Source: an uncultured Bacteroidales bacterium
GTDB lineage: Bacteria > Bacteroidota > Bacteroidia > Bacteroidales > UBA4417
NCBI GenBank assembly: GCA_903946925.1
Contig: CAJAXK010000419.1
Span: 1-40,165 of the forward strand
Length of the DNA: 40,165 nt
Direction of reading: 5' to 3'
Shown: positions 11,951 through 37,008 of the stretch, in pieces
Numbering within the stretch: position 1 is the first letter of the stretch
Layout: every line of letters starts with the position of its first letter
The notes under the pieces: generated by a model
Database searches by the model: none
What the model was told of the DNA's origin: nothing
Seen by the model: only the letters and a program-made list of their open reading frames with translations
Program-made: the position numbers and the translations under genes

Positions 11951-14900
11951 TTATAAAACTGTTCCAGCTTTTCGTTTTTCGCCCCAAAACCTGAATGCGT
12001 TCTGTAAGTCTTCAACCTTTAACGGCTTGGTAATATAATCGTCCATGCCTACTTCCATACATTTGTCCCTATCGCTTTTCATGGCATTGGCAGTCATTGC
12101 AATTATGATTGGCCTGTTGGTTTTCAAGTGGTCTATTATAATGCTTGTTGCCTCATATCCATCCATTTCGGGCATTTGTATATCCATAAAAATCAGTTCG
12201 TACTTTTGCCTTTTGACCGCTTCTATCACTTCCAGCCCGTTGGCAACAATATCGGCAGAATACCCGAGCAGTTTCAGCACGTTCCTAATCATTTTTTGGT
12301 TTATGATATTATCTTCGGCAACCAAAATCTCGAATGGATATTTTGATGCAAGTTGCCCCAGATCAGGCTCTACCGCAAATGTATTGGGTGTATTTGGCGA
12401 AAACGGTGAAAGTGTTTTCGTAAGGATTTCGGACAACTGCGAGTGTTTTATTGGCTTGTTTACGTAATAAGCAAACAAGTTCTGCATTTCCTCCTTTTGA
12501 AAATTGTAGCCAATAGAGGTCAACATTATCAAGGGAAGAGTCTTTTTGTCAATGGTCTTCCTGATTTCTTTGGCCAACATTAGTCCATCCATTTCGGGCA
12601 TTTGCATATCCAATATGCCAATATCGAATGTTGTGTTGTTGCCCAACAGCTTAAGTGCGGCTTTGCCGGATTCGGCAGAAACACATTTCATGCCCCAAAG
12701 CCCGCATTGAAGTTCTATTATACGTCGGTTGGTAGGGTTATCATCAACAATAAGCGCCCTCTTACCAGGTAAAATATTCAATGGATCATCGAGATTGTTT
12801 TTCTCTTTTACCGGAGTAGTATATTGGGTCTGTATTGTAAATCGGAAATCGGAGCCTTGTCCTTCCTTGCTTTCGACCCATATATTGCCTTGCATCAGTT
12901 TAACAAGGTTTGATGTGATTGCAAGGCCCAAGCCTGTTCCCCCATATTTTCGGGTTGTGGTGGTATCGGCCTGGCTGAAAGGCGAAAAAATGGATGATAG
13001 TTTGTTTTGAGGTATTCCTATACCAGTATCTTTAACCGAAAACTCGAGGGTAACATTGTCTTCAACCTTTCCTGCGACCTTTAGATGGACAAAAATTTCG
13101 CCACTCGAAGTAAATTTAATGGCATTGCCAATTAGGTTCACTAATATTTGCCTCAAACGGAAACCATCGCCAATAATAAATTGGTTCACATCGGCATCGA
13201 TAAAATACATGATTTCGAGGCGTTTTTCGAGAGCCTTGGGGGCAGAAAGATCCAACACGTCCTCAATACACCTTCTAATATCGAAAGCATTGTTTTCCAG
13301 CTCCATGCGGCCCGATTCTATTTTGGAGAAATCGAGTATTTCGTTGATGATGCTCAGTAAATTGTCGCCGGAGGTTTCAATAATTTCAATATATTCGCGT
13401 TGCAACGGGGTAAGTTCGGTATGGAGTAAAATGCTTGTCATGCCAAAAACACCATTCATCGGGGTGCGTATTTCGTGGCTCATGGAAGCCAAAAACTCCG
13501 ATTTTGCCTTGTCGGCAGATTGGGCACTTTCCATGGCAGCCCTTAGGTTTTCTTGTGCTTCGTAGCGGCGGATCGAATTCCTGACGTTGTTGGCCAACAT
13601 TTTGAGGGTGCTTTCCTCGCTCGCCGTCCATTGGTGTTCGATGGTACAATCGGCAAAACCTACCAAACCCCAGAACGATTCATCTTCAATATCAATAATT
13701 GGCACCACTATGAACGACTTTATCAATTGCCTTTCGAGAAGCACTTTCATTTGACCGCTAAACTTCGATGTGGTTGCATTTATAGGTTTGTGCTTCAATA
13801 GGTTAGCATACCATGCACTTTCGTCGTGGTGATATTCAAATTCTAATGCTTCGGCAGGTTTAATTTTGGCTAATACGGCAGGTGCGGTCCATTGATATAT
13901 ACTTTTCACTTTGCGGATGCCAGTGCTTTTGTCGGATTCGTTCTTGTAAACAAAAATCCTGTCAATCTGTGATATTTCCCCAATCACTTTCAGCGCTTTC
14001 ATAATAGAAACATCTGGGTTTTCGCCCGTCAGCAATTGGTTTGAGGCTTCGGCAAGACCTTGTAAAATGTTGCTTTGCCGCAGCAGTTGCGATTCGCCTA
14101 TGCGACGTTCCTTATTTTCTTTTTCCAATTCAACTTTTTGTTGATAAAAAACCTTTATCAACTGCGCAACCTGACTAAATTCGTCTTTGTTTTTCTCCAA
14201 TAAGCTCAATTCGGAAACATCACCATCCCTTAAGCTTGCGGAAATAATATTCAATGGTTTGCGGACCCATTTATACAGCACAACGAAAAAACTTAAAACA
14301 AGGAATAATAGGAAAATGCAAAGAAAAATAAAAACAAACCTGTTTATTTTGTTGAAGTTCGATAATTCGATATTTGATTTCTCGAATTGCAGTACAGTTG
14401 ATTCTTGGGCTTTTTCGTCCAATAAAACTTTATAAACAATAAGCGAATCGTTCTCTATTTTATACAAATCCTGCATGTTTGCCTGTTCGCTTTTGGTAAT
14501 GCTGCACGATGTGTTTTTTGAAAGCTCCTGCATGAAAGTATTGTCCCATTTTTTGGTCAACACAAAAATCCCTTTGGCAGGTGTACTGTGGTTGGTATCT
14601 AAGGTTGGATGTATGGTAGAGGCAGTAATTTCGATAATACCCTTTGGCGAATCGTAGAAATAGCGTAGGTGGCCATTTTGTAAAACAGTGTCCAAAACGC
14701 CCAGTTTTTGTAAGGAATCGGCAAAAATTTCGTCCTGCTTTAATCCGAAATTATAAACAAGCTGTTTATTGAGGTTGTAAACCGATATTGAACTAAGCTT
14801 GAAGGATTCGAGGCTGGTGCCAATATTGCTAACTGCCCAATTGAGATCGGGTTTGTTCACATAATAAATAAGGTCGTCCCAAATAGTGTAATCGTCGAGG

Positions 14901-15085
14901 ATTTGATCCAATTGCCCCGACTTAACATTAATTGCAGTGTTTACCAATTCAATCTGCTGCCCAACCGATGATTGCAGCATAAGGTCGTTTTGCTTTTTCT
15001 GTGATTTAAAAAAAAGGAATAATGCTGCTCCTAAAAGAATAATCGTTGCCGAAAACAAAAGCAGGATCCTGTTGCGTATGGTCAT
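11951..15085 (-). CDS. Hybrid sensor histidine kinase (CHASE4-GAF-HisKA-HATPase-REC-REC)
   Basis: This is a 1044-residue membrane sensor kinase. After an N-terminal helix (about 6-27) comes a periplasmic region whose DDYTIWDDLIYYV and DLNWAVSNI match a CHASE4 sensory domain. A second helix (about 249-271) is followed by a HAMP-like linker, a GAF domain (about 365-515), HisKA with H537 in SMSHEIRTPMNG, and an ATPase domain with NLIGNAIKFT, DTGIGIP and GTGLGLAI. Two receiver domains end the protein, with phospho-acceptor aspartates D826 (LDMQMPEMDG) and D968 (MDIQMPEMDG). No Hpt domain is present, so onward phosphotransfer needs a separate Hpt such as the one at 32055. I start at the ATG at 15083-15085; an ATG at 15188-15190 would add 35 residues with no recognisable role ahead of the membrane helix. 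It lies inside the polysaccharide run. The ligand is unknown. Confidence 0.93.
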   Translation of the reverse strand: MTIRNRILLLFSATIILLGAALFLFFKSQKKQNDLMLQSSVGQQIELVNTAINVKSGQLDQILDDYTIWDDLIYYVNKPDLNWAVSNIGTSLESFKLSSISVYNLNKQLVYNFGLKQDEIFADSLQKLGVLDTVLQNGHLRYFYDSPKGIIEITASTIHPTLDTNHSTPAKGIFVLTKKWDNTFMQELSKNTSCSITKSEQANMQDLYKIENDSLIVYKVLLDEKAQESTVLQFEKSNIELSNFNKINRFVFIFLCIFLLFLVLSFFVVLYKWVRKPLNIISASLRDGDVSELSLLEKNKDEFSQVAQLIKVFYQQKVELEKENKERRIGESQLLRQSNILQGLAEASNQLLTGENPDVSIMKALKVIGEISQIDRIFVYKNESDKSTGIRKVKSIYQWTAPAVLAKIKPAEALEFEYHHDESAWYANLLKHKPINATTSKFSGQMKVLLERQLIKSFIVVPIIDIEDESFWGLVGFADCTIEHQWTASEESTLKMLANNVRNSIRRYEAQENLRAAMESAQSADKAKSEFLASMSHEIRTPMNGVFGMTSILLHTELTPLQREYIEIIETSGDNLLSIINEILDFSKIESGRMELENNAFDIRRCIEDVLDLSAPKALEKRLEIMYFIDADVNQFIIGDGFRLRQILVNLIGNAIKFTSSGEIFVHLKVAGKVEDNVTLEFSVKDTGIGIPQNKLSSIFSPFSQADTTTTRKYGGTGLGLAITSNLVKLMQGNIWVESKEGQGSDFRFTIQTQYTTPVKEKNNLDDPLNILPGKRALIVDDNPTNRRIIELQCGLWGMKCVSAESGKAALKLLGNNTTFDIGILDMQMPEMDGLMLAKEIRKTIDKKTLPLIMLTSIGYNFQKEEMQNLFAYYVNKPIKHSQLSEILTKTLSPFSPNTPNTFAVEPDLGQLASKYPFEILVAEDNIINQKMIRNVLKLLGYSADIVANGLEVIEAVKRQKYELIFMDIQMPEMDGYEATSIIIDHLKTNRPIIIAMTANAMKSDRDKCMEVGMDDYITKPLKVEDLQNAFRFWGEKRKAGTVL

Positions 15086-15500
15086 GGTTCGGTATAAATT
15101 TAGTAATAGGCAAAATGAGTTAAACGAGTGTGGGGTGGATGTAAAAAATGGCTTTAACCTATATCCTATCAATAAACAGGATGAGTACATGTTTATTGAT
15201 AAAACAGTTAAAAGTAATAAATTATATGGCTCTTTATTACCAAATACCCCAAGTTATTTTTTTTATTTTTCCATGTGTTTTTCCATGATTATGAATGTAT
15301 AAAAATTGGATTTGGGTTTTTATGGCAAAGTGCTAAAGCACAATTGCTTGGGCATTTTGGTTTGTCGGCAAAACAAGAGTTGCTTCAGGTAATTGGTTGG
15401 CTGTATTGCCACTCAACCGCATTGTTATGGAAAATATTTATCTATTTCTGTACCCTGATTACATGGATACAGTATTTTTCAAGTGTTTTTACGAAGGAAT
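15086..15500. other. Gene-free spacer upstream of the histidine kinase
   Basis: About 415 bases separate the kinase start from the end of the polymerase gene. I see AT-rich sequence with no conserved frame and no complete Bacteroidota promoter (TTTG then TAnnTTTG). The length suggests that the kinase, and perhaps the genes after it, have their own promoter here. Confidence 0.4.
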
Positions 15501-23835: not shown

Positions 23836-25023
23836 TCACTTTACAGAAAAACTCCGTAATAGGAGATTGAAATCGTACCAAAAAGAGTAGTTGTTACCAA
23901 TAAAATGATCGGAGTATGCAACATCGAGCATAATGCGCTCAGCGGCTGACATATTTCCATCTTTATTGCGCAATTCAATTTGGTAAAGCCCTGTCATGCC
24001 TGCCGGTGCAAGAAAACGCCTTGCCATTTCTCCCATCGAAAACCTTTCTGCCTCGTACAACTGCAAAGGCCTGTTGCCCACAATTGACATATCGCCTTTC
24101 AACACATTGATTAATTGAGGAAGTTTTTCGATGCCTGTTTTGCGGAGAAATCTTCCAACATTGGTAATATATGGGTCGTTTTCGTTTTTGATGTTTATTG
24201 TTCCATTTTTTTCAATCTCACGCGCTTGTACTGAATACCAATACTCGCAAATTGAATCGTGCTGAAAATGCATCAAGGTTGAACATGCTGTGCCTGGCCT
24301 TAACTGGCTGCATCGTGGACAAGGTTTCTCAAAATCAATTTCCATTTTTTGGGTGCCACTGTAACCACTGTTTCTTTGTGCCGAACGTTTGGTAGCATCG
24401 GAATCAACACCTTCGCGCATGGTACGGAATTTAAGGTAATCAAATATTCGGCCACCCGAACCTAATCGTTTAGTAACATATAAAACACTTCCCTTCGATT
24501 CGAGCAATATCGCTACCGAAACAATCAACAACAAGGGTGAAAGAACAACCATTCCGCCAAAGGCCACAATTAAATCGAAAAGCCTTTTCGATGTGGGCAT
24601 TGTGTATGTAATATCGCGGCTAAGTTCTGGTTCAACAGGTTTTAATTTCTTGCGGTACTCCCTTAGAAACAGGATCCTGTTCACCAATCCTTCCAATGGT
24701 GGCAAAGGGATAAGGTAGAAATCGTCAACTTGCTTACTGACAGACTCTTTATATACCTCTTGGTTAAAAACCGTATCCAAAAGCAAAAAGCAAATGCTGT
24801 CCAAATCACGCCTTTTGCGCACCCATTCGTGCATGGCAAGCCCATCGCCTCCCGAAATGGTCATTTCGCACAGAATGGCATCAGGTACCTGTCCGGATTG
24901 GAGATAGTTTTCGGCAGCAAGCACATTTCCCTGCAAGGTAAGCGAAATCCGCTTTTCTGCCCGCAAAGCAGTTATTGCTTCGGTTGAATTCCCAATGTAA
25001 ACTATCCTAAGCGCATTTTCCAT
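23836..25023 (-). CDS. Sugar transferase B: degenerate receiver plus sugar-transferase domain with altered catalytic dyad
   Basis: This 395-residue paralogue of the protein at 21917 shares the same architecture. The N-terminal receiver-like domain again lacks the acidic pair (IVYIGNS), has Glu at the acceptor site (E53, LCEMTISGGDG) and Pro/Leu in place of the Lys region (YLIPLP). The sugar-transferase domain has the membrane helix, KFRTMREG, the Cys insert (C235-x2-C238-x8-C247-x11-C259) and GDMSIVGNRPL. However, the family's catalytic Asp-Glu in DELPQ is Glu-Lys (E299-K300, GIEKLPQ), read directly from GAA AAA, and DPRITKVG is DPYITNVG. It may be inactive, have changed chemistry, or regulate sugar transferase A. 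The gene is intact with no frameshift. It starts at the ATG at 25021-25023, 207 bases after receiver B. Confidence 0.87.
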   Translation of the reverse strand: MENALRIVYIGNSTEAITALRAEKRISLTLQGNVLAAENYLQSGQVPDAILCEMTISGGDGLAMHEWVRKRRDLDSICFLLLDTVFNQEVYKESVSKQVDDFYLIPLPPLEGLVNRILFLREYRKKLKPVEPELSRDITYTMPTSKRLFDLIVAFGGMVVLSPLLLIVSVAILLESKGSVLYVTKRLGSGGRIFDYLKFRTMREGVDSDATKRSAQRNSGYSGTQKMEIDFEKPCPRCSQLRPGTACSTLMHFQHDSICEYWYSVQAREIEKNGTINIKNENDPYITNVGRFLRKTGIEKLPQLINVLKGDMSIVGNRPLQLYEAERFSMGEMARRFLAPAGMTGLYQIELRNKDGNMSAAERIMLDVAYSDHFIGNNYSFWYDFNLLLRSFSVK

Positions 25024-31424: not shown

Positions 31425-31459
31425 ACAGTGGTAATTGGCTCATAAAAAATCTGCTGCAA

Positions 31460-31831
31460 ATGATAAACTGGGAAGAGTTTAATAGTGTTTACCAACCTTA
31501 TGGCAATGAGTTAATCATTGAAATCATCAATATGTTAGATGGGGATAAGGCTGAAAATCCTCCTGCACCATCATACGAAGAGCGGATGGAAATGCTGAAA
31601 AGAAGAATCGATGAACTGGATTTTAAGGAAATTCAATGGAATCTAAGTTCTATTAGAGGTCTAATTCGCAACTTTTATGATCCTGTGGCAAATGCAGCTT
31701 CAAATAGATTGAAAGAAATGGGATACTCAGAAACATCAGTTGGGTTATCGGAAGAATTCGAAAAATTTAAAATTGCTGCCGACAAACTTGTGATCGAACT
31801 CCGGGAATACCGCAAAACACTAACTGCCTGA
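31460..31831 (+). CDS. Hpt-like helical protein lacking the phospho-histidine
   Basis: The 123-residue protein is the paralogue of the Hpt protein at 32055 and aligns with it end to end (MINWEEFNSVYQPYG against MIDWEKFNETYQYYG; RNFYDP against VNFYDP; KIAADKLVIELREYRKTL against KIASEKLLIELKQHLKTL). At the position of the phosphorylated histidine it has serine (S63, in NLSSIRGLIRN, codon AGT at 31646-31648). It therefore cannot carry a phosphoryl group in the normal way and may compete with, bind or modulate the receivers. A 15-residue insert with prolines (about 33-45) is also absent from the other copy. I chose the ATG at 31460 because it aligns with the start of the paralogue; an upstream in-frame start would overlap rfbD. 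Confidence 0.75.
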   Translation: MINWEEFNSVYQPYGNELIIEIINMLDGDKAENPPAPSYEERMEMLKRRIDELDFKEIQWNLSSIRGLIRNFYDPVANAASNRLKEMGYSETSVGLSEEFEKFKIAADKLVIELREYRKTLTA

Positions 31832-32054: not shown

Positions 32055-32399
32055 ATGATTGACTGGGAAAAATTTAATGAAACATATCAATATTATGGGC
32101 GTGAGGTAGTTGGGGAAATAATCGAATTGTGGGAAACTGACTATGACGGACGTATAACAGAGCTTACAAAAAATATTGCCGAAAGGGATTTTAAGGCACT
32201 TGATGATACTGCTCATAGTTTTAAAGGCACTGTCGTTAATTTTTATGACCCCGAGCCTGTAAAATTCGCCTACCTCCTTGAGAAAATGGGGAAACTTCAA
32301 ATACCTGATGACGGAATAGAAGAAGTATTTGAACAATTGAAGATTGCGTCCGAAAAACTTCTGATAGAACTAAAACAACATCTTAAGACCCTAACTTAA
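32055..32399 (+). CDS. Histidine phosphotransfer (Hpt) protein
   Basis: This 114-residue all-helical protein fits the Hpt domain: H54 lies in LDDTAHSFKGTVVNF (codon CAT at 32214-32216), matching the A-H-x-[LF]-K-G signature in which the histidine carries phosphate between receivers. It has no other domain. As the hybrid kinase at 11951 has two receivers but no Hpt domain, this protein is the obvious candidate to pass phosphate from it to the single-domain receivers and to the GH130-receiver fusion. That link is inferred from gene content only. It is the last gene before the terminator at 32615. Confidence 0.85.
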   Translation: MIDWEKFNETYQYYGREVVGEIIELWETDYDGRITELTKNIAERDFKALDDTAHSFKGTVVNFYDPEPVKFAYLLEKMGKLQIPDDGIEEVFEQLKIASEKLLIELKQHLKTLT

Positions 32400-32914: not shown

Positions 32915-35128
32915 ATGAAAATAATCTGTTTGGGCAACTTCCCGCCGAGGCAATGCGGCATAGCGACTTTTACCGAAAATTTGGTGAATGCCATATTACA
33001 TGCTGCCAATATCCATTCCCTTTCTGTGGAAATAGAGGTAATAGCCATGAACGATGGCAATAAAACGTACCCGTATCCCGAAATTGTCAAGAAAACTATC
33101 AGGGAACGGGTGATGGGCGATTATATTCAAATGTCCGAATATATTAACAACTCTGGTGCGGATATTTTCCTTTTGCAGCACGAATATGGGATATTTGGAG
33201 GAGAAAGCGGTATATTGCTGCTGGCATTGCTGCGCCGGATAAAAATACCGGTTGTAACTACCTTGCACACAGTTTTGCAAAAACCGAGTTTCCACCAGCT
33301 CGAAGTAATGAAAAAAATCACTTCATATTCAACACAAATAGTTGTGATGAATGGCTTGGCAATCCGGTTTTTAACCGATGTTTATAATGTGCCGGTCGAA
33401 AAAATTTCGCGTATCGAGCATGGCGTCCCTGATTTTGAAGAGTGTAAAAACAGTTTGTTGCCCAAACCTAAAGAATGGGAAAACCGCAAAGTAATGCTCA
33501 CTTTTGGTTTGATTGGCCGTAGCAAAGGCATAGAGGTAGCTTTAAAAGCATTGCCAGCCATTGTTAGCAAACACCCTGAATTACTTTATGTTGTGCTTGG
33601 CAAAACACATCCCAACATTGTGAGCTATGCCGGTGAGGAATATCGGGATTTCCTCTATAACTTGGTAACAGAGTTAGGTTTGGAAAAAAATGTGCAGTTT
33701 ATCAATGAATATGTGAGCGAATTGGAGTTAATGTCGCACTTGAAAAATGCGGATATTTATGTTACCCCTTATCTCAACAAAGCGCAGATAACCAGCGGCA
33801 CTTTGAGTTATGCTGTAAGTGGTGGCTGTGCCGTAATTTCAACCCCGTATTGGCATGCCGAGGAATTGCTTGCCGATGGCCGGGGGCATCTTTTCGATTT
33901 CGGGAACCATAAACAGCTTTCAGGTATCGTAAACCAATTGCTCGACAATTCGGAATTGTTGCTACAGCAACAGCAAAAAGCGTATTCGTATGGAAAATCA
34001 ATTTCGTGGCCTATAATAGGGAAACTTTATTTAAACTTATTTGATGCATCTGCTTTCCAAAAAAAGCTTGAAAGCAAGCAAAATCCTATCGGTTTGCCAA
34101 TAAAGTACCCTGATTTCGATATTTCGCACCTAAAACGGCTTTCCGACGACACGGGCTTGTTACAACATGCACGTACCAGCATACCGTATTACAAAGCTGG
34201 TTACAGCCTCGACGATAATGCCCGTGCCATCATAGTTTGCCTTGCCGCTTGGCACAATTCAAAAGAAAAAGTTTATCTTGATTTGCTGGATAATTATCTC
34301 GCGTACACCACTTACATGCAACAAAAGGATGGCAGTTTTAAAAACTACATGACTTTTGACAGGATAATAATTGACGACACTTCGGACGATGCATTTGGAA
34401 GGGTATTCTGGGCACTTGGATACCTTATAAGGTATGCACCAGTAAATTCTGTTTTCCAATTAGGGCACGAGTTGTTCGAACACTCTTTGCCACACCTCGA
34501 AAGTTTAAGTTATGCAAGGGGTTATGCCAACTGTATTTTTGGCTTGTACCATTATGTAAAACGCTTTCCCGATCAGGAAAAATTCCTGAAATTGTTACAA
34601 GTGCTTTCCGACCATTTGTGTGATAAATTTAACCAGCATAAACGCGAAAACTGGAGTTGGTTCGAGGATAAGCTAACATACGACAACGGTTTGCTGCCAG
34701 CCGCTTTGTTCAAGGCTTTCGAGATTTCGGGCAATGAAAAGTATTTGGACATAGCAAATGAAAGTATGGCCTTTTTAGAATCGAAATGCTTTAAGGAAGA
34801 ATGGCTTTCGCTGATAGGCAACCAAAAATGGCTGCTTATGGATCAGGATTACAAAATGTTTGCCCAACAGCCTGTGGATGCCATGGCCATGGTATTGCTT
34901 TACGAAAGTGCCCTTGAAGCGACAGGTAAGCCTGAGTATATTGATAAACTCTTGCTTTCGTTTGATTGGTTTTATGGCAAAAACGACCTCGACGTACCTT
35001 TGTTCGATACCGAAACAAAAGGTTGCAACGATGGTATCGAAGATTTTAACATCAACCGCAACCAGGGTGCCGAAAGCAATATCGCTTATTTATTGTCGTG
35101 GCTTGTTGCCGAGCCTTTTTTCCGCTAA
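32915..35128 (+). CDS. GT4 glycosyltransferase fused to a C-terminal (alpha/alpha)-barrel-like domain
   Basis: The 737-residue protein has two parts. Residues 1-390 are a GT4 enzyme: GNFPPRQCGIATFTENL near 7-23, LLQHEYGIFGG, RIEHGVPD, LTFGLIGRSKGIEVALKALP near 195-215, and a donor-site region around SGTLSYAVSGGCAVISTPYW (about 293-312). Residues about 405-737 are helical with YYKAGYSLDDNARAIIV, DDTSDDAFGRVFWALGYL, DNGLLPAALFKAFEISGNEKYL and QQPVDAMAMVLL, resembling (alpha/alpha)6 toroids of sugar-acting enzymes. Proteins of this architecture often sit next to GH130 genes, as here, suggesting joint synthesis and phosphorolysis or trimming of a mannoside-type glycan. Its stop codon overlaps that of the opposing GH130 gene (35125-35128). 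Confidence 0.83.
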   Translation: MKIICLGNFPPRQCGIATFTENLVNAILHAANIHSLSVEIEVIAMNDGNKTYPYPEIVKKTIRERVMGDYIQMSEYINNSGADIFLLQHEYGIFGGESGILLLALLRRIKIPVVTTLHTVLQKPSFHQLEVMKKITSYSTQIVVMNGLAIRFLTDVYNVPVEKISRIEHGVPDFEECKNSLLPKPKEWENRKVMLTFGLIGRSKGIEVALKALPAIVSKHPELLYVVLGKTHPNIVSYAGEEYRDFLYNLVTELGLEKNVQFINEYVSELELMSHLKNADIYVTPYLNKAQITSGTLSYAVSGGCAVISTPYWHAEELLADGRGHLFDFGNHKQLSGIVNQLLDNSELLLQQQQKAYSYGKSISWPIIGKLYLNLFDASAFQKKLESKQNPIGLPIKYPDFDISHLKRLSDDTGLLQHARTSIPYYKAGYSLDDNARAIIVCLAAWHNSKEKVYLDLLDNYLAYTTYMQQKDGSFKNYMTFDRIIIDDTSDDAFGRVFWALGYLIRYAPVNSVFQLGHELFEHSLPHLESLSYARGYANCIFGLYHYVKRFPDQEKFLKLLQVLSDHLCDKFNQHKRENWSWFEDKLTYDNGLLPAALFKAFEISGNEKYLDIANESMAFLESKCFKEEWLSLIGNQKWLLMDQDYKMFAQQPVDAMAMVLLYESALEATGKPEYIDKLLLSFDWFYGKNDLDVPLFDTETKGCNDGIEDFNINRNQGAESNIAYLLSWLVAEPFFR

Positions 35129-37008
35129 TTGTGCTGTGCCAATATTTTTGCTATGCGGAGTATCAGTAATTTAGGGTCAACCGGTTTTTTGATGTATTCG
35201 GCAGCCCCCATTTTTAGACCTTTTTCTTCGTGTTCGGAACTTGTATGGCCCGAGAGGAAAATTAACGGGATATTGATATCGTGCCCTTTCATATATTCGA
35301 GCATCTGATAGCCATCAAGGTTAGGCATAGAAATATCCGAAAGTATCAGATCGTACTTTTCCTTTGCTATTTGCATAAGCGCAATAACGCCATCGGATGC
35401 AATATCAACATCATACCCTGCCGATTTCAATATGCTGCCAATAATTTTCTGGTTAATAACCTCATCGTCAACCACAAGTATGCGTGAATTGGTTTTGTCA
35501 AGTTTAGGCCTGCCAAGCTTTATATCAGAAGGCAATAGATTGGTAAGCAACTCCTTTAACGACAAAGTAGCATAGGTTGATGCTGTATCCGACATGGCGT
35601 AAGGGATAACCAATTCATCGTTATTGATGATTGACCCACAGGAATATACCACGTTCGGCACATAGCCTTCGCGTTCTTCCTCGTTGGGCAAAATCAGAGG
35701 CTCGTTCAATTGGCCAATAACTTTGGTCGGATCGTCCAGATCGAGTAGTATTGCACCAATTACATATTTACGCATCGGCCCTACACCATGGGTTATTACC
35801 AACCAACCAAATTCTGTTTCAATGGGCGAGCCGCAATTTCCAACTTGAATAAATTCCCAAGGGAATTTGGGCATTTGAAGTTTCACGGCATCGTGCCAAA
35901 GGTTTATGGTATCCGAAAACATTACATAATTGTTGATGCCGTCGAGGCGCGAAAGCATGGCATATTTGCCTTTTATTTTTCGTGGGAACAATGCCATGCC
36001 TTTGTTCTGGGCATTTTCGCCATGTATTGGCATTACTTCAAACTGATAGAAACTCTTGGTTGTAATCATCATTGGCATGATACTCACGCCGTTATAAGCT
36101 GTGTATGTGGCATAATAGCGCTCCAAGCCGTTGTCGTCGGTAAATTTAACAAACCGGGCATCTTCGATACCGTTGCTTTCGGCTGCCGAAATCGGGAATA
36201 TTACACGGTCGGAAATACTGGTATCCAACGAAAATGAAATCCTATAATGCGAATCGCCCAACCAACTTATTATCTGTAGCATTTTGCGTTGCTTGTCGTC
36301 GGGCTGCCTTTCCCTTTTTGTTTCGTCAATCGCCCTGTAAAGCTCGTTGTAGTCGAACTCGGCCCTGAGTTTTTGCAACACATAAGCCAAAATGGGATCT
36401 TCGCTTAATACTTCGCTACCACCATACACTTCGCAGAGTTTTTGGTAAAACACATCTTTTTTGTAAGTGAAATTATACACGTTCTCGGCTTCGTCAATGA
36501 GCCTTCCGGTCGGGATCATTTCCAGGTTATTGTTGGCATCGAGTATTCCGCCACGGAAAGCGATAGACGAAATATGGCCTTCGCCGGTTGCCCTGAAACT
36601 AATAATAACCCTTTTTTGCCCTTCCTGTAGCCCCGACTGGTCAGGGTCTTCGATCATGGATGGGTTGAAGAATGCAGCCGATTCAATTGAATATTCAGAG
36701 GAGAAAAATGCACCAATCAGCAGTTTTTTATACACAGATAAGGTGGTCAGGTCGCCAACCTTACCATTCATTATATCGCGTGTGCGGTCGAAATGTTTTT
36801 GAAATATCTTCGAAATATTACGGTGGCGTGCCGAAAAGTCGCGCAAAACCTGGTTCAAACTTAGCATGGCAGCTTCCTCCGGCATTTCCACAACCTTTTG
36901 GATAATGGTTTGTACCCTTGTTTCAGGTCCGGGGAAGAAAAATCTAACAATTACCCTTTTGGGGTCGCTATAAAAGCGGATCGGTTTGCGGTTTATGGAA
37001 GTGCTCAT
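35125..37008 (-). CDS. GH130-family glycoside phosphorylase/hydrolase fused to a receiver domain
   Basis: The 627-residue protein combines an enzyme with a signalling domain. Residues about 1-490 match the long, PH1107-related GH130 group, whose characterised members act on beta-mannosides by phosphorolysis or hydrolysis. Features include SIESAAFFNPSMIEDPDQSG, ISFRATGEGHISSIAFR, the core GIEDARFVKF with E282-D283, PRKIKGKYAMLSRLDG, NCGSPIETEFGWLVITHGVGPMR and VPNVVYSCG (each a standard family block). Residues about 505-627 are a receiver with VVDDE, phospho-acceptor D558 in LILSDISMPNLDGYQ, a Ser switch residue in FLSGHT and IKKPVDP. All phosphorylation residues are present, so phosphorylation could control the enzyme. 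Starts at the ATG at 37006-37008; no signal peptide, so cytoplasmic. It converges on the GT4 gene with a 4-base overlap. Confidence 0.88.
   Translation of the reverse strand: MSTSINRKPIRFYSDPKRVIVRFFFPGPETRVQTIIQKVVEMPEEAAMLSLNQVLRDFSARHRNISKIFQKHFDRTRDIMNGKVGDLTTLSVYKKLLIGAFFSSEYSIESAAFFNPSMIEDPDQSGLQEGQKRVIISFRATGEGHISSIAFRGGILDANNNLEMIPTGRLIDEAENVYNFTYKKDVFYQKLCEVYGGSEVLSEDPILAYVLQKLRAEFDYNELYRAIDETKRERQPDDKQRKMLQIISWLGDSHYRISFSLDTSISDRVIFPISAAESNGIEDARFVKFTDDNGLERYYATYTAYNGVSIMPMMITTKSFYQFEVMPIHGENAQNKGMALFPRKIKGKYAMLSRLDGINNYVMFSDTINLWHDAVKLQMPKFPWEFIQVGNCGSPIETEFGWLVITHGVGPMRKYVIGAILLDLDDPTKVIGQLNEPLILPNEEEREGYVPNVVYSCGSIINNDELVIPYAMSDTASTYATLSLKELLTNLLPSDIKLGRPKLDKTNSRILVVDDEVINQKIIGSILKSAGYDVDIASDGVIALMQIAKEKYDLILSDISMPNLDGYQMLEYMKGHDINIPLIFLSGHTSSEHEEKGLKMGAAEYIKKPVDPKLLILRIAKILAQHN

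Follow-up and report, generated by a model that had tools for sequence, protein, structure and literature searches.

The fusion gene and its two domains

The window analyzed here is the whole of a 40,165-nucleotide stretch of contig CAJAXK010000419.1 from an uncultured Bacteroidales bacterium, and its subject is a gene in which a glycoside hydrolase family 130 (GH130) enzyme and a response-regulator receiver domain are joined in one open reading frame (ORF). The gene and its parts, placed by ORF, Pfam and alignments, are listed below, with residue numbers referring to the encoded fusion protein.

35125..37008, minus strand: GH130-receiver fusion gene, 627 amino acids (aa), ATG start, without internal stop
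35539..36714, minus strand: GH130 enzyme region, about residues 99-490, from the Pfam match (267-488) and invariant residues
36160-36162, minus strand: codon of the general acid D283, in the GH130 region
35485..35538, minus strand: linker, residues 491-508
35137..35484, minus strand: receiver domain, residues 509-624 (Pfam match 510-619)
35335-35337, minus strand: codon of the phosphoacceptor D558, in the receiver domain

Both domains are recognized well above the Pfam cut-offs, Glyco_hydro_130 on residues 267-488 (E 6.8e-28, 98 bits versus a cut-off of 26) and Response_reg on residues 510-619 (E 8.7e-28, 97.2 bits versus 30.2). The PDB matches divide the protein likewise, with 9fj8 (a 1,2-beta-oligomannan phosphorylase) on the N-terminal part and PleD and CheY receivers on the C-terminal part. 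We infer the start of the GH130 region at residue 99 from the conserved blocks around N115 and R139; within the region residues 161-250 vary, the fused proteins averaging 43.6% identity there, and the linker is 15-19 aa long in 45/45 fused proteins. An assembly or frame artefact was considered and rejected, since there are 45 distinct fused sequences and two other genomes of the genus carry the full-length fusion (94% and 89% identity); it is also present at full length in three Bacteroidota lineages. In a simple hydropathy test the highest 19-residue mean was 1.12, with no hint of a membrane segment or a signal peptide, which suggests that the fusion protein is probably cytosolic. A PF04041 search of the window genome gave one other GH130, a 346-residue frame on contig C65.

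The window receiver carries the acidic pair D514/D515, D558, S586 and K608, and also Y605, residues that we take to match CheY D13, D57, T87, Y106 and K109. Across the 45 fused sequences (loci are given as L numbers and genomes as G numbers) D515, D/E514, D558 and S/T586 are each found in 45/45 and K608 in 44/45, with R in L053, while residue 605 is Y in 43, F in one and I in one. The mean pairwise identity among the fused proteins is 56% in the receiver, compared with 83% and 75% in the GH130 blocks, 57% in the N-terminus and 44% in the stretch 161-250. It is clear that the receiver sequence diverges, yet the phosphoacceptor residues stay conserved, and a degenerate receiver was rejected on the grounds that 44-45 of the 45 fused proteins keep the residues of this site.

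For the GH130 part, residues were counted over 88 homologues (45 fused, 43 unfused). N115, R139, E282, D283, R285, R354 and D474 are invariant in 88/88, and K336, H407, R413 and Y415 are each present in 87/88. A Glu preceding the catalytic Asp is the GH130_NC pattern according to passages of PMC4264767. K336 aligns with a Lys in 4/4 inspected chains of enzymes known, or so titled, to act on beta-1,2-mannan (9fj8, 7fip, 5b0p and 9eqq), and TM1225 (1vkd) has an Arg at this place; such a Lys, Lys199 of BT3780, is proposed as a beta-1,2 determinant in an excerpt of PMC4599007. The Lys expected of a beta-1,2-mannoside-specific GH130 is thus present as K336, the equivalence to BT3780 Lys199 being drawn via other chains and not by direct alignment.

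Position 388 is basic in the five solved GH130 chains compared (R in 9fj8, 5b0p and 9eqq, K in 7fip and, via a linking alignment, in 1vkd), and we presume it to be the third phosphate ligand, Lys212 of UhgbMP. In the homologues it is Gln in 87/88, without the basic residue of the known phosphorylases (the exception, L124, has K), and Gln is also found in the three long homologues from Ilyobacter, Devosia and Sphingomonas plasmids described below. Of the three basic phosphate-binding residues, Lys336 and Arg354 are therefore basic and the third place is taken by Gln388, if the Lys212 equivalence holds. Because a residue that is basic in five solved GH130s is Gln in 87/88 homologues, ordinary phosphorolysis cannot be assumed, and with Gln388 the reaction may be phosphorolysis, hydrolysis or transfer. 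GH130 hydrolases carry a Glu pair, as stated in passages of PMC4599007; at the places equated with this pair by spacing rather than by direct alignment with BT3780, the fusion has Arg354 and Gln388 and no Glu. The NCBIfam equivalog for beta-1,2-mannobiose phosphorylase (NF052550) gave 147.5 bits against a cut-off of 450. From these residue patterns, we class the GH130 of the fusion as an enzyme of a separate long subfamily, which probably acts on beta-1,2-mannosides.

An earlier note on this DNA, made from the sequence alone, had described a GH130 enzyme fused to an intact receiver with D558, the acidic pair, the Ser switch and Lys, and this description stands: a single ORF holds both Pfam domains, the fusion recurs in 45 distinct sequences, and the receiver residues are all present in the window and almost without exception in the fused set. 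Its further statement that the GH130 core motifs are intact is right for the seven invariant positions but has to be amended at position 388. Likewise, the glycan phosphorylase/hydrolase output that it named is indeed a conserved carbohydrate-enzyme output, of which the term phosphorylase is uncertain given Gln388.

Distribution and origin of the fusion

The fused set consists of 45 distinct sequences, 37 from a species-wide scan together with the window and 8 from a search of the order, and nearly all of them are from Bacteroidota. The scan covered one genome for each of 84,980 species with two exact peptide patterns and returned 49 loci, 36 of them full-length fusions (37 distinct proteins with the window); because the patterns were taken from fused proteins, it is biased towards fusions. 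Left out of the 36 were L083, whose gene is split over two frames, L089, L092, L093, L095 and L097, which are cut by contig ends, L098-L100, which hold the receiver only, and the unfused L084, L087, L088 and L090. Of the 295 order genomes searched, 57 gave a match, and the fusion is present in 9 of these, the receiver being confirmed in each of the 8 besides the window, and 395 genomes of the phylum gave 48 near full-length rows (46 genomes), with a frame of more than 600 aa in two, the window and G141. Within the genus the fusion is found in 3 of 16 genomes (the window, G011 and G015) and only receiver-less long homologues in four (G002, G004, G008 and G014); the other nine, several of which are incomplete metagenome-assembled genomes (MAGs), gave no long homologue at E 1e-60. 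The possibility raised in the earlier note, that the fusion is absent from relatives, thus does not hold, even if its presence is patchy.

The fusion hosts in the scan are Bacteroidales-like MAGs, Chitinophagaceae (Sediminibacterium, Hydrotalea, Limnovirga soli) and Flavobacteriaceae (Maribacter, Flavivirga, Polaribacter). A fusion was also returned from a MAG with the label Verrucomicrobia (L054); it groups with those of Bacteroidota, and this genome may be misbinned. Since named strains carry the fusion gene (Limnovirga soli KCS-6, Maribacter algarum RZ26, Flavivirga jejuensis and F. aquimarina), the fusion is open to testing. Receiver-less long GH130 homologues are commoner than fused ones, and for this reason the receiver looks like an added regulator. 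Among GH130 frames of more than 700 aa, no receiver match was found in the ORFs of G065, G073 and one G018 stretch (G023, the other G018 stretch and the 5430-aa frame of G251 were left out), and G065 and G073 encode double GH130 proteins. At L156:1402-3540 and L157:1203-3371, two genomes from a different family of this phylum encode proteins of 712 and 722 aa, each with two GH130 stretches.

The tree for the GH130 part has 85 rows, 45 of them fused, L015-L018 (copies of included loci) and the distant L087, L088 and L090 having been dropped. On it the fused/unfused label needs two changes, and 0 of 500 shuffles were as low; an earlier GH130 tree of 78 rows (37 fused) also needed two. The fused rows stay together save for one unfused member inside, L084 from an Akkermansiaceae MAG, which is without a receiver downstream. 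The direction of the first label change depends on where the GH130 tree is rooted, and L125, L124 and others form long branches whose placement is unsure. In the receiver tree (57 rows), a quick tree built before the last eight fused proteins were found, the 38 fused receivers, L083 included, make up one side of a branch versus 19 other receivers, with a Shimodaira-Hasegawa-like approximate likelihood ratio test (SH-aLRT) value of 99. Several independent fusions were considered and are not supported, given the two changes in the GH130 trees and the receivers on one side of a branch; the trees fit one fusion event and one loss.

Neighbouring genes and candidate phosphodonors

The window is part of an exopolysaccharide cluster with Wzy-like, glycosyltransferase, UDP-glucose dehydrogenase-like and RmlD genes, a CHASE4-GAF hybrid kinase and two stand-alone receivers. 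Four of its genes bear on the fusion gene.

32915..35128, plus strand: GT4 glycosyltransferase (Pfam), about 740 aa, convergent with the fusion gene with a 4-base overlap
32055..32399, plus strand: small histidine phosphotransfer (HPt)-like protein with His54 in an HSFKG motif, a candidate phosphodonor, 2.7 kb from the fusion gene
31457..31831, plus strand: HPt-like paralogue without the His, no Pfam match, beside the His-bearing copy
11951..15190, minus strand: hybrid histidine kinase, CHASE4-GAF-HisKA-HATPase-REC-REC (Pfam), about 20 kb from the fusion gene

A GT4 gene lies within 1.5 kb of the fusion in 38/45 loci, downstream and convergent in 36 and upstream on the same strand in two (L122 and L123), and it also adjoins many unfused homologues, where a short GH130 and another glycosyltransferase are frequently present as well. 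Profile matches of the window GT4 are to PimA/PimB-type mannosyltransferase chains, and its C-terminal domain, with a profile match to 7tem, is weakly like GH88/GH127-type barrels (Pfam matches below the cut-off). In L122 and L123 the fusion gene has a convergent neighbour, a class I mannose-6-phosphate isomerase gene (Pfam over the cut-off). Three plasmid regions with long unfused homologues were examined: the Devosia neptuniae plasmid has isomerase, GT4 and GH130 genes in a row, the Sphingomonas paucimobilis plasmid has mannose-1-phosphate guanylyltransferase, GT4 and GH130 genes in a row, and the order on the Ilyobacter polytropus plasmid is GT4-GH130-GH130-GT4. The mannose-6-phosphate isomerase and GDP-mannose genes beside a few members suggest turnover of a self-made mannoside, and the neighbourhood is in keeping with a product that GT4 makes from GDP-mannose and GH130 turns over. 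A GDP-mannose pathway including such GH130s is proposed in passages of PMC4264767.

Two further observations concern the surroundings of these genes. GT4/GH130 modules are plasmid-borne (L138, L139 and L140), the Ilyobacter plasmid being typed as conjugative and the Sphingomonas module lying near dnaK and grpE, and in Limnovirga soli (L074:4842-11021) the fusion gene has a cyanophycin synthetase-like gene on one side and a gene for a peptidase S51 (cyanophycinase-like) on the other.

Candidate phosphodonors were sought in the same surroundings, where the hints come from gene order. In the window the HPt-like gene sits between the RmlD and GT4 genes, and it is possible that the hybrid kinase is the start of a relay to the fusion protein; the 6.17-Mb genome has five HPt matches at E 0.01, that of the window included, two of them over the cut-off. 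HPt-like genes occur within about 3.3 kb of the fusion in the window, L085 and L052, all of one genus. At L130 a PAS-GAF-HisKA-HATPase kinase gene without receiver lies 103 bp upstream of the fusion gene on the same strand. An HPt partner as a general rule was rejected, as a phmmer search with the window HPt, which distant HPts could escape, gave none outside the three loci just named. Among the unfused homologues, L101:7262-12631 has a long GH130 gene followed directly downstream, on the same strand, by genes for a PAS hybrid kinase and a double receiver, perhaps a split form of the same control. Other unfused regions hold a hybrid kinase about 3 kb away (L112), a kinase at about 2.5 kb (L118) and a receiver at about 6 kb (L108), and with signalling genes in only 4/20 unfused regions a split form, with a separate receiver or kinase gene, was rejected as a general rule.

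The cluster of the window also encodes a bacterial sugar transferase (PF02397; 21917-23149, minus strand) with an N-terminal receiver-like stretch (E 3.3e-4, below the cut-off). Judged by eye, the phosphoacceptor place of this stretch seems to be occupied by Glu, and the transferase would be a second receiver-like enzyme fusion in the same polysaccharide cluster. It is matched at E 1e-60 in 28 of 149 order genomes, in 19 of them (the window included) over nearly all 410 aa, counts that refer to the whole protein and say nothing on the receiver part. A second sugar transferase (23836-25023, minus strand), 52% identical to it over nearly the whole length, lies in the same cluster.

Proposed control and comparison with known systems

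We favor the reading, to which we give a probability of roughly 0.55, that the fusion protein is a response regulator with an enzyme output, in which a long-subfamily GH130 would act on self-made beta-(1,2-)mannosides from the GT4 partner while the receiver, together with a kinase/HPt relay, would set the activity. The partner GT4 would make these mannosides in the cell and the GH130 of the fusion would act on them, the substrate presumably being a beta-1,2-mannoside. A histidine kinase or HPt relay would phosphorylate D558 in the cell, and phosphorylation may then change catalysis, in either direction, because the receiver dimerizes differently or, across the short linker, docks differently on the propeller. 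Phosphorylation control is the most economical reading because the phosphoacceptor residues are conserved, the linker is near-constant, an HPt-like gene is nearby and a kinase gene lies upstream at L130. When the earlier note took the fusion to imply phosphorylation control of carbohydrate turnover, it was in agreement with the conserved response regulator and its kept phosphoacceptor site, whereas the effect on activity is an extrapolation from sequence.

Several observations weigh against the reading that we favor, among them the Gln at position 388 described above. No GT4 gene lies within 1.5 kb in 7/45 fused loci (L052, L074, L077, L124, L125, L127 and L130); L077 and L127 lie near contig ends, L074 has a GT4 piece 7.4 kb upstream, and G602, the genome of L127, has a 52% GT4 match at the edge of another contig. 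A search at E 1e-40 found GT4 neither in G506 nor in G635, and the matches in G015 and G542 are no better than 33-34%. The Devosia isomerase falls below the Pfam cut-off, and no mannose-metabolism gene was recognized among the neighbour clusters recurring in at least three loci (clusters partly annotated), so that the mannose link rests on few cases. On the signalling side, the HPt-like protein of the window matches PF01627 below the cut-off (E 2.1e-4, 21.9 bits versus 24.6), and HPt-like genes are near only 3/45 fused loci, all of one genus. Kinase genes, detected with one phmmer query in a set where 30/45 loci have at least 5 kb of flank on both sides, were found in the flanks of only 3/45, L130 at 0.1 kb, L062 at 4 kb and the window at 20 kb.

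Three other roles for the receiver have to be weighed. Instead of regulating catalysis it might be a phosphorylation-dependent docking or localization module, directed to a kinase, the GT4 partner or the polysaccharide machinery. The GT4 gene is the most constant neighbour, and receivers without DNA-binding outputs are, in archaea, thought to work through protein contacts (passages of PMC5847659), but GT4 genes also adjoin many receiver-less homologues, so the pairing does not need a receiver, and the near-constant short linker suggests intramolecular coupling; we therefore consider docking unlikely, although worth keeping in mind. The roles could also be reversed, with the GH130 as sensor and the receiver as effector, so that glycan binding would drain or gate phosphate in an exopolysaccharide signalling network in the manner of a phosphate sink. 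While relay parts are plentiful in the cluster of the window (a two-receiver hybrid kinase, two stand-alone receivers and HPt-like proteins), a network of this kind is not seen in the examined flanks of most other fused loci, and the seven catalytic-site positions are kept in 45/45 fused proteins, seemingly beyond the needs of binding, which makes this role improbable.

It seems hardly probable, too, that the receiver is a passenger, perhaps phosphorylated, without effect on the enzyme. In favor of a passenger, the fused proteins are less alike in the receiver than in the GH130 blocks, about as much as in the variable N-terminus, and L084 inside the fused clade is without it; however, despite this divergence 44-45/45 retain the phosphoacceptor, the acidic residues, the Ser/Thr switch and the Lys.

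The preferred reading, an enzyme output under receiver control, can be extended in a speculative and rather doubtful way. Bacteroidota might control the turnover of a self-made, mannogen-like beta-mannan by two-component phosphorylation of the enzyme itself, with the Gln388 subfamily using a nucleophile or donor other than plain phosphate. As a part of the same extension, and by an equally tentative analogy, such control would be a bacterial Asp-phosphate counterpart of glycogen phosphorylase control. Among the matches listed in a search of the openly licensed literature, mostly on Leishmania, no title dealt with bacterial mannogen.

In that literature, as far as its searched text extends, a GH130 response regulator is not described, reviews of response-regulator outputs lying outside the scope. 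In the texts holding both terms GH130 and response regulator stand apart and no fusion is described, and a paper matching response-regulator output together with glycoside or glycosyl hydrolase deals with hybrid two-component sensors, without a fusion. The architecture thus does not appear there as common and already characterized, a finding that the earlier note had named as one that would speak against it. Its view that a GH130 output is unusual agrees with this result and is tempered by passages of PMC5847659 in which bacterial REC domains are attached to standard metabolic enzymes. If the preferred reading is true, two-component systems gain a glycan-processing enzyme among their enzymatic outputs, a simple sugar assay could measure how a receiver controls a soluble enzyme, and the loci point to an uncharacterized GT4/GH130 mannoside pathway that is represented in Bacteroidota, Fusobacteriota and Proteobacteria.

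The best solved-structure matches of the fusion are 9fj8 (E 1e-43) and 7fip (E 7e-40), which lead to the GH130 beta-1,2-mannoside phosphorylases Teth514_1788 and Teth514_1789; we take 9fj8 to be one of the two. For 7fip the assignment as a Teth514 enzyme chain is from a table of PMC8950772. These chains share with the fusion the Glu-Asp catalytic pair, Lys336, Arg354, His407, Tyr415 and Asp474, and the Teth514 gene cluster includes a GT4 gene, as at the fusion loci (figure legend of PMC4264767), but they are 303-313 aa long, without receiver, and have R/K where the fusion family has Gln388. The unfused WP_013389265.1 from Ilyobacter polytropus pILYOP02 (48% identity over 74% of the fusion query) has the same active-site motifs, Gln at 388 included, and an adjoining GT4 gene of similar length; unlike the fusion it is without receiver, and its gene row contains a short GH130 and a second GT4. 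With the beta-1,2-mannosidases BT3780 and BACOVA_03624, as far as passages of PMC4599007 describe them, the fusion has in common the catalytic Asp, the neighbouring Glu and the proposed beta-1,2 Lys, whereas in these enzymes the three basic phosphate ligands are missing and a Glu pair is the candidate base; in the fusion Arg354 is kept and 388 is Gln.

On the side of the receiver, the GH130 fusion differs from PleD-type diguanylate cyclases, which are response regulators with enzymatic outputs, and from REC-BcsA proteins in the C-terminal position of its receiver and in having a GH130 enzyme as output. The REC-BcsA glycosyltransferase fusions, reported from archaea (Methanobacteriaceae) in passages of PMC5847659, set a precedent for it, a complete receiver being joined there to a carbohydrate-active enzyme.

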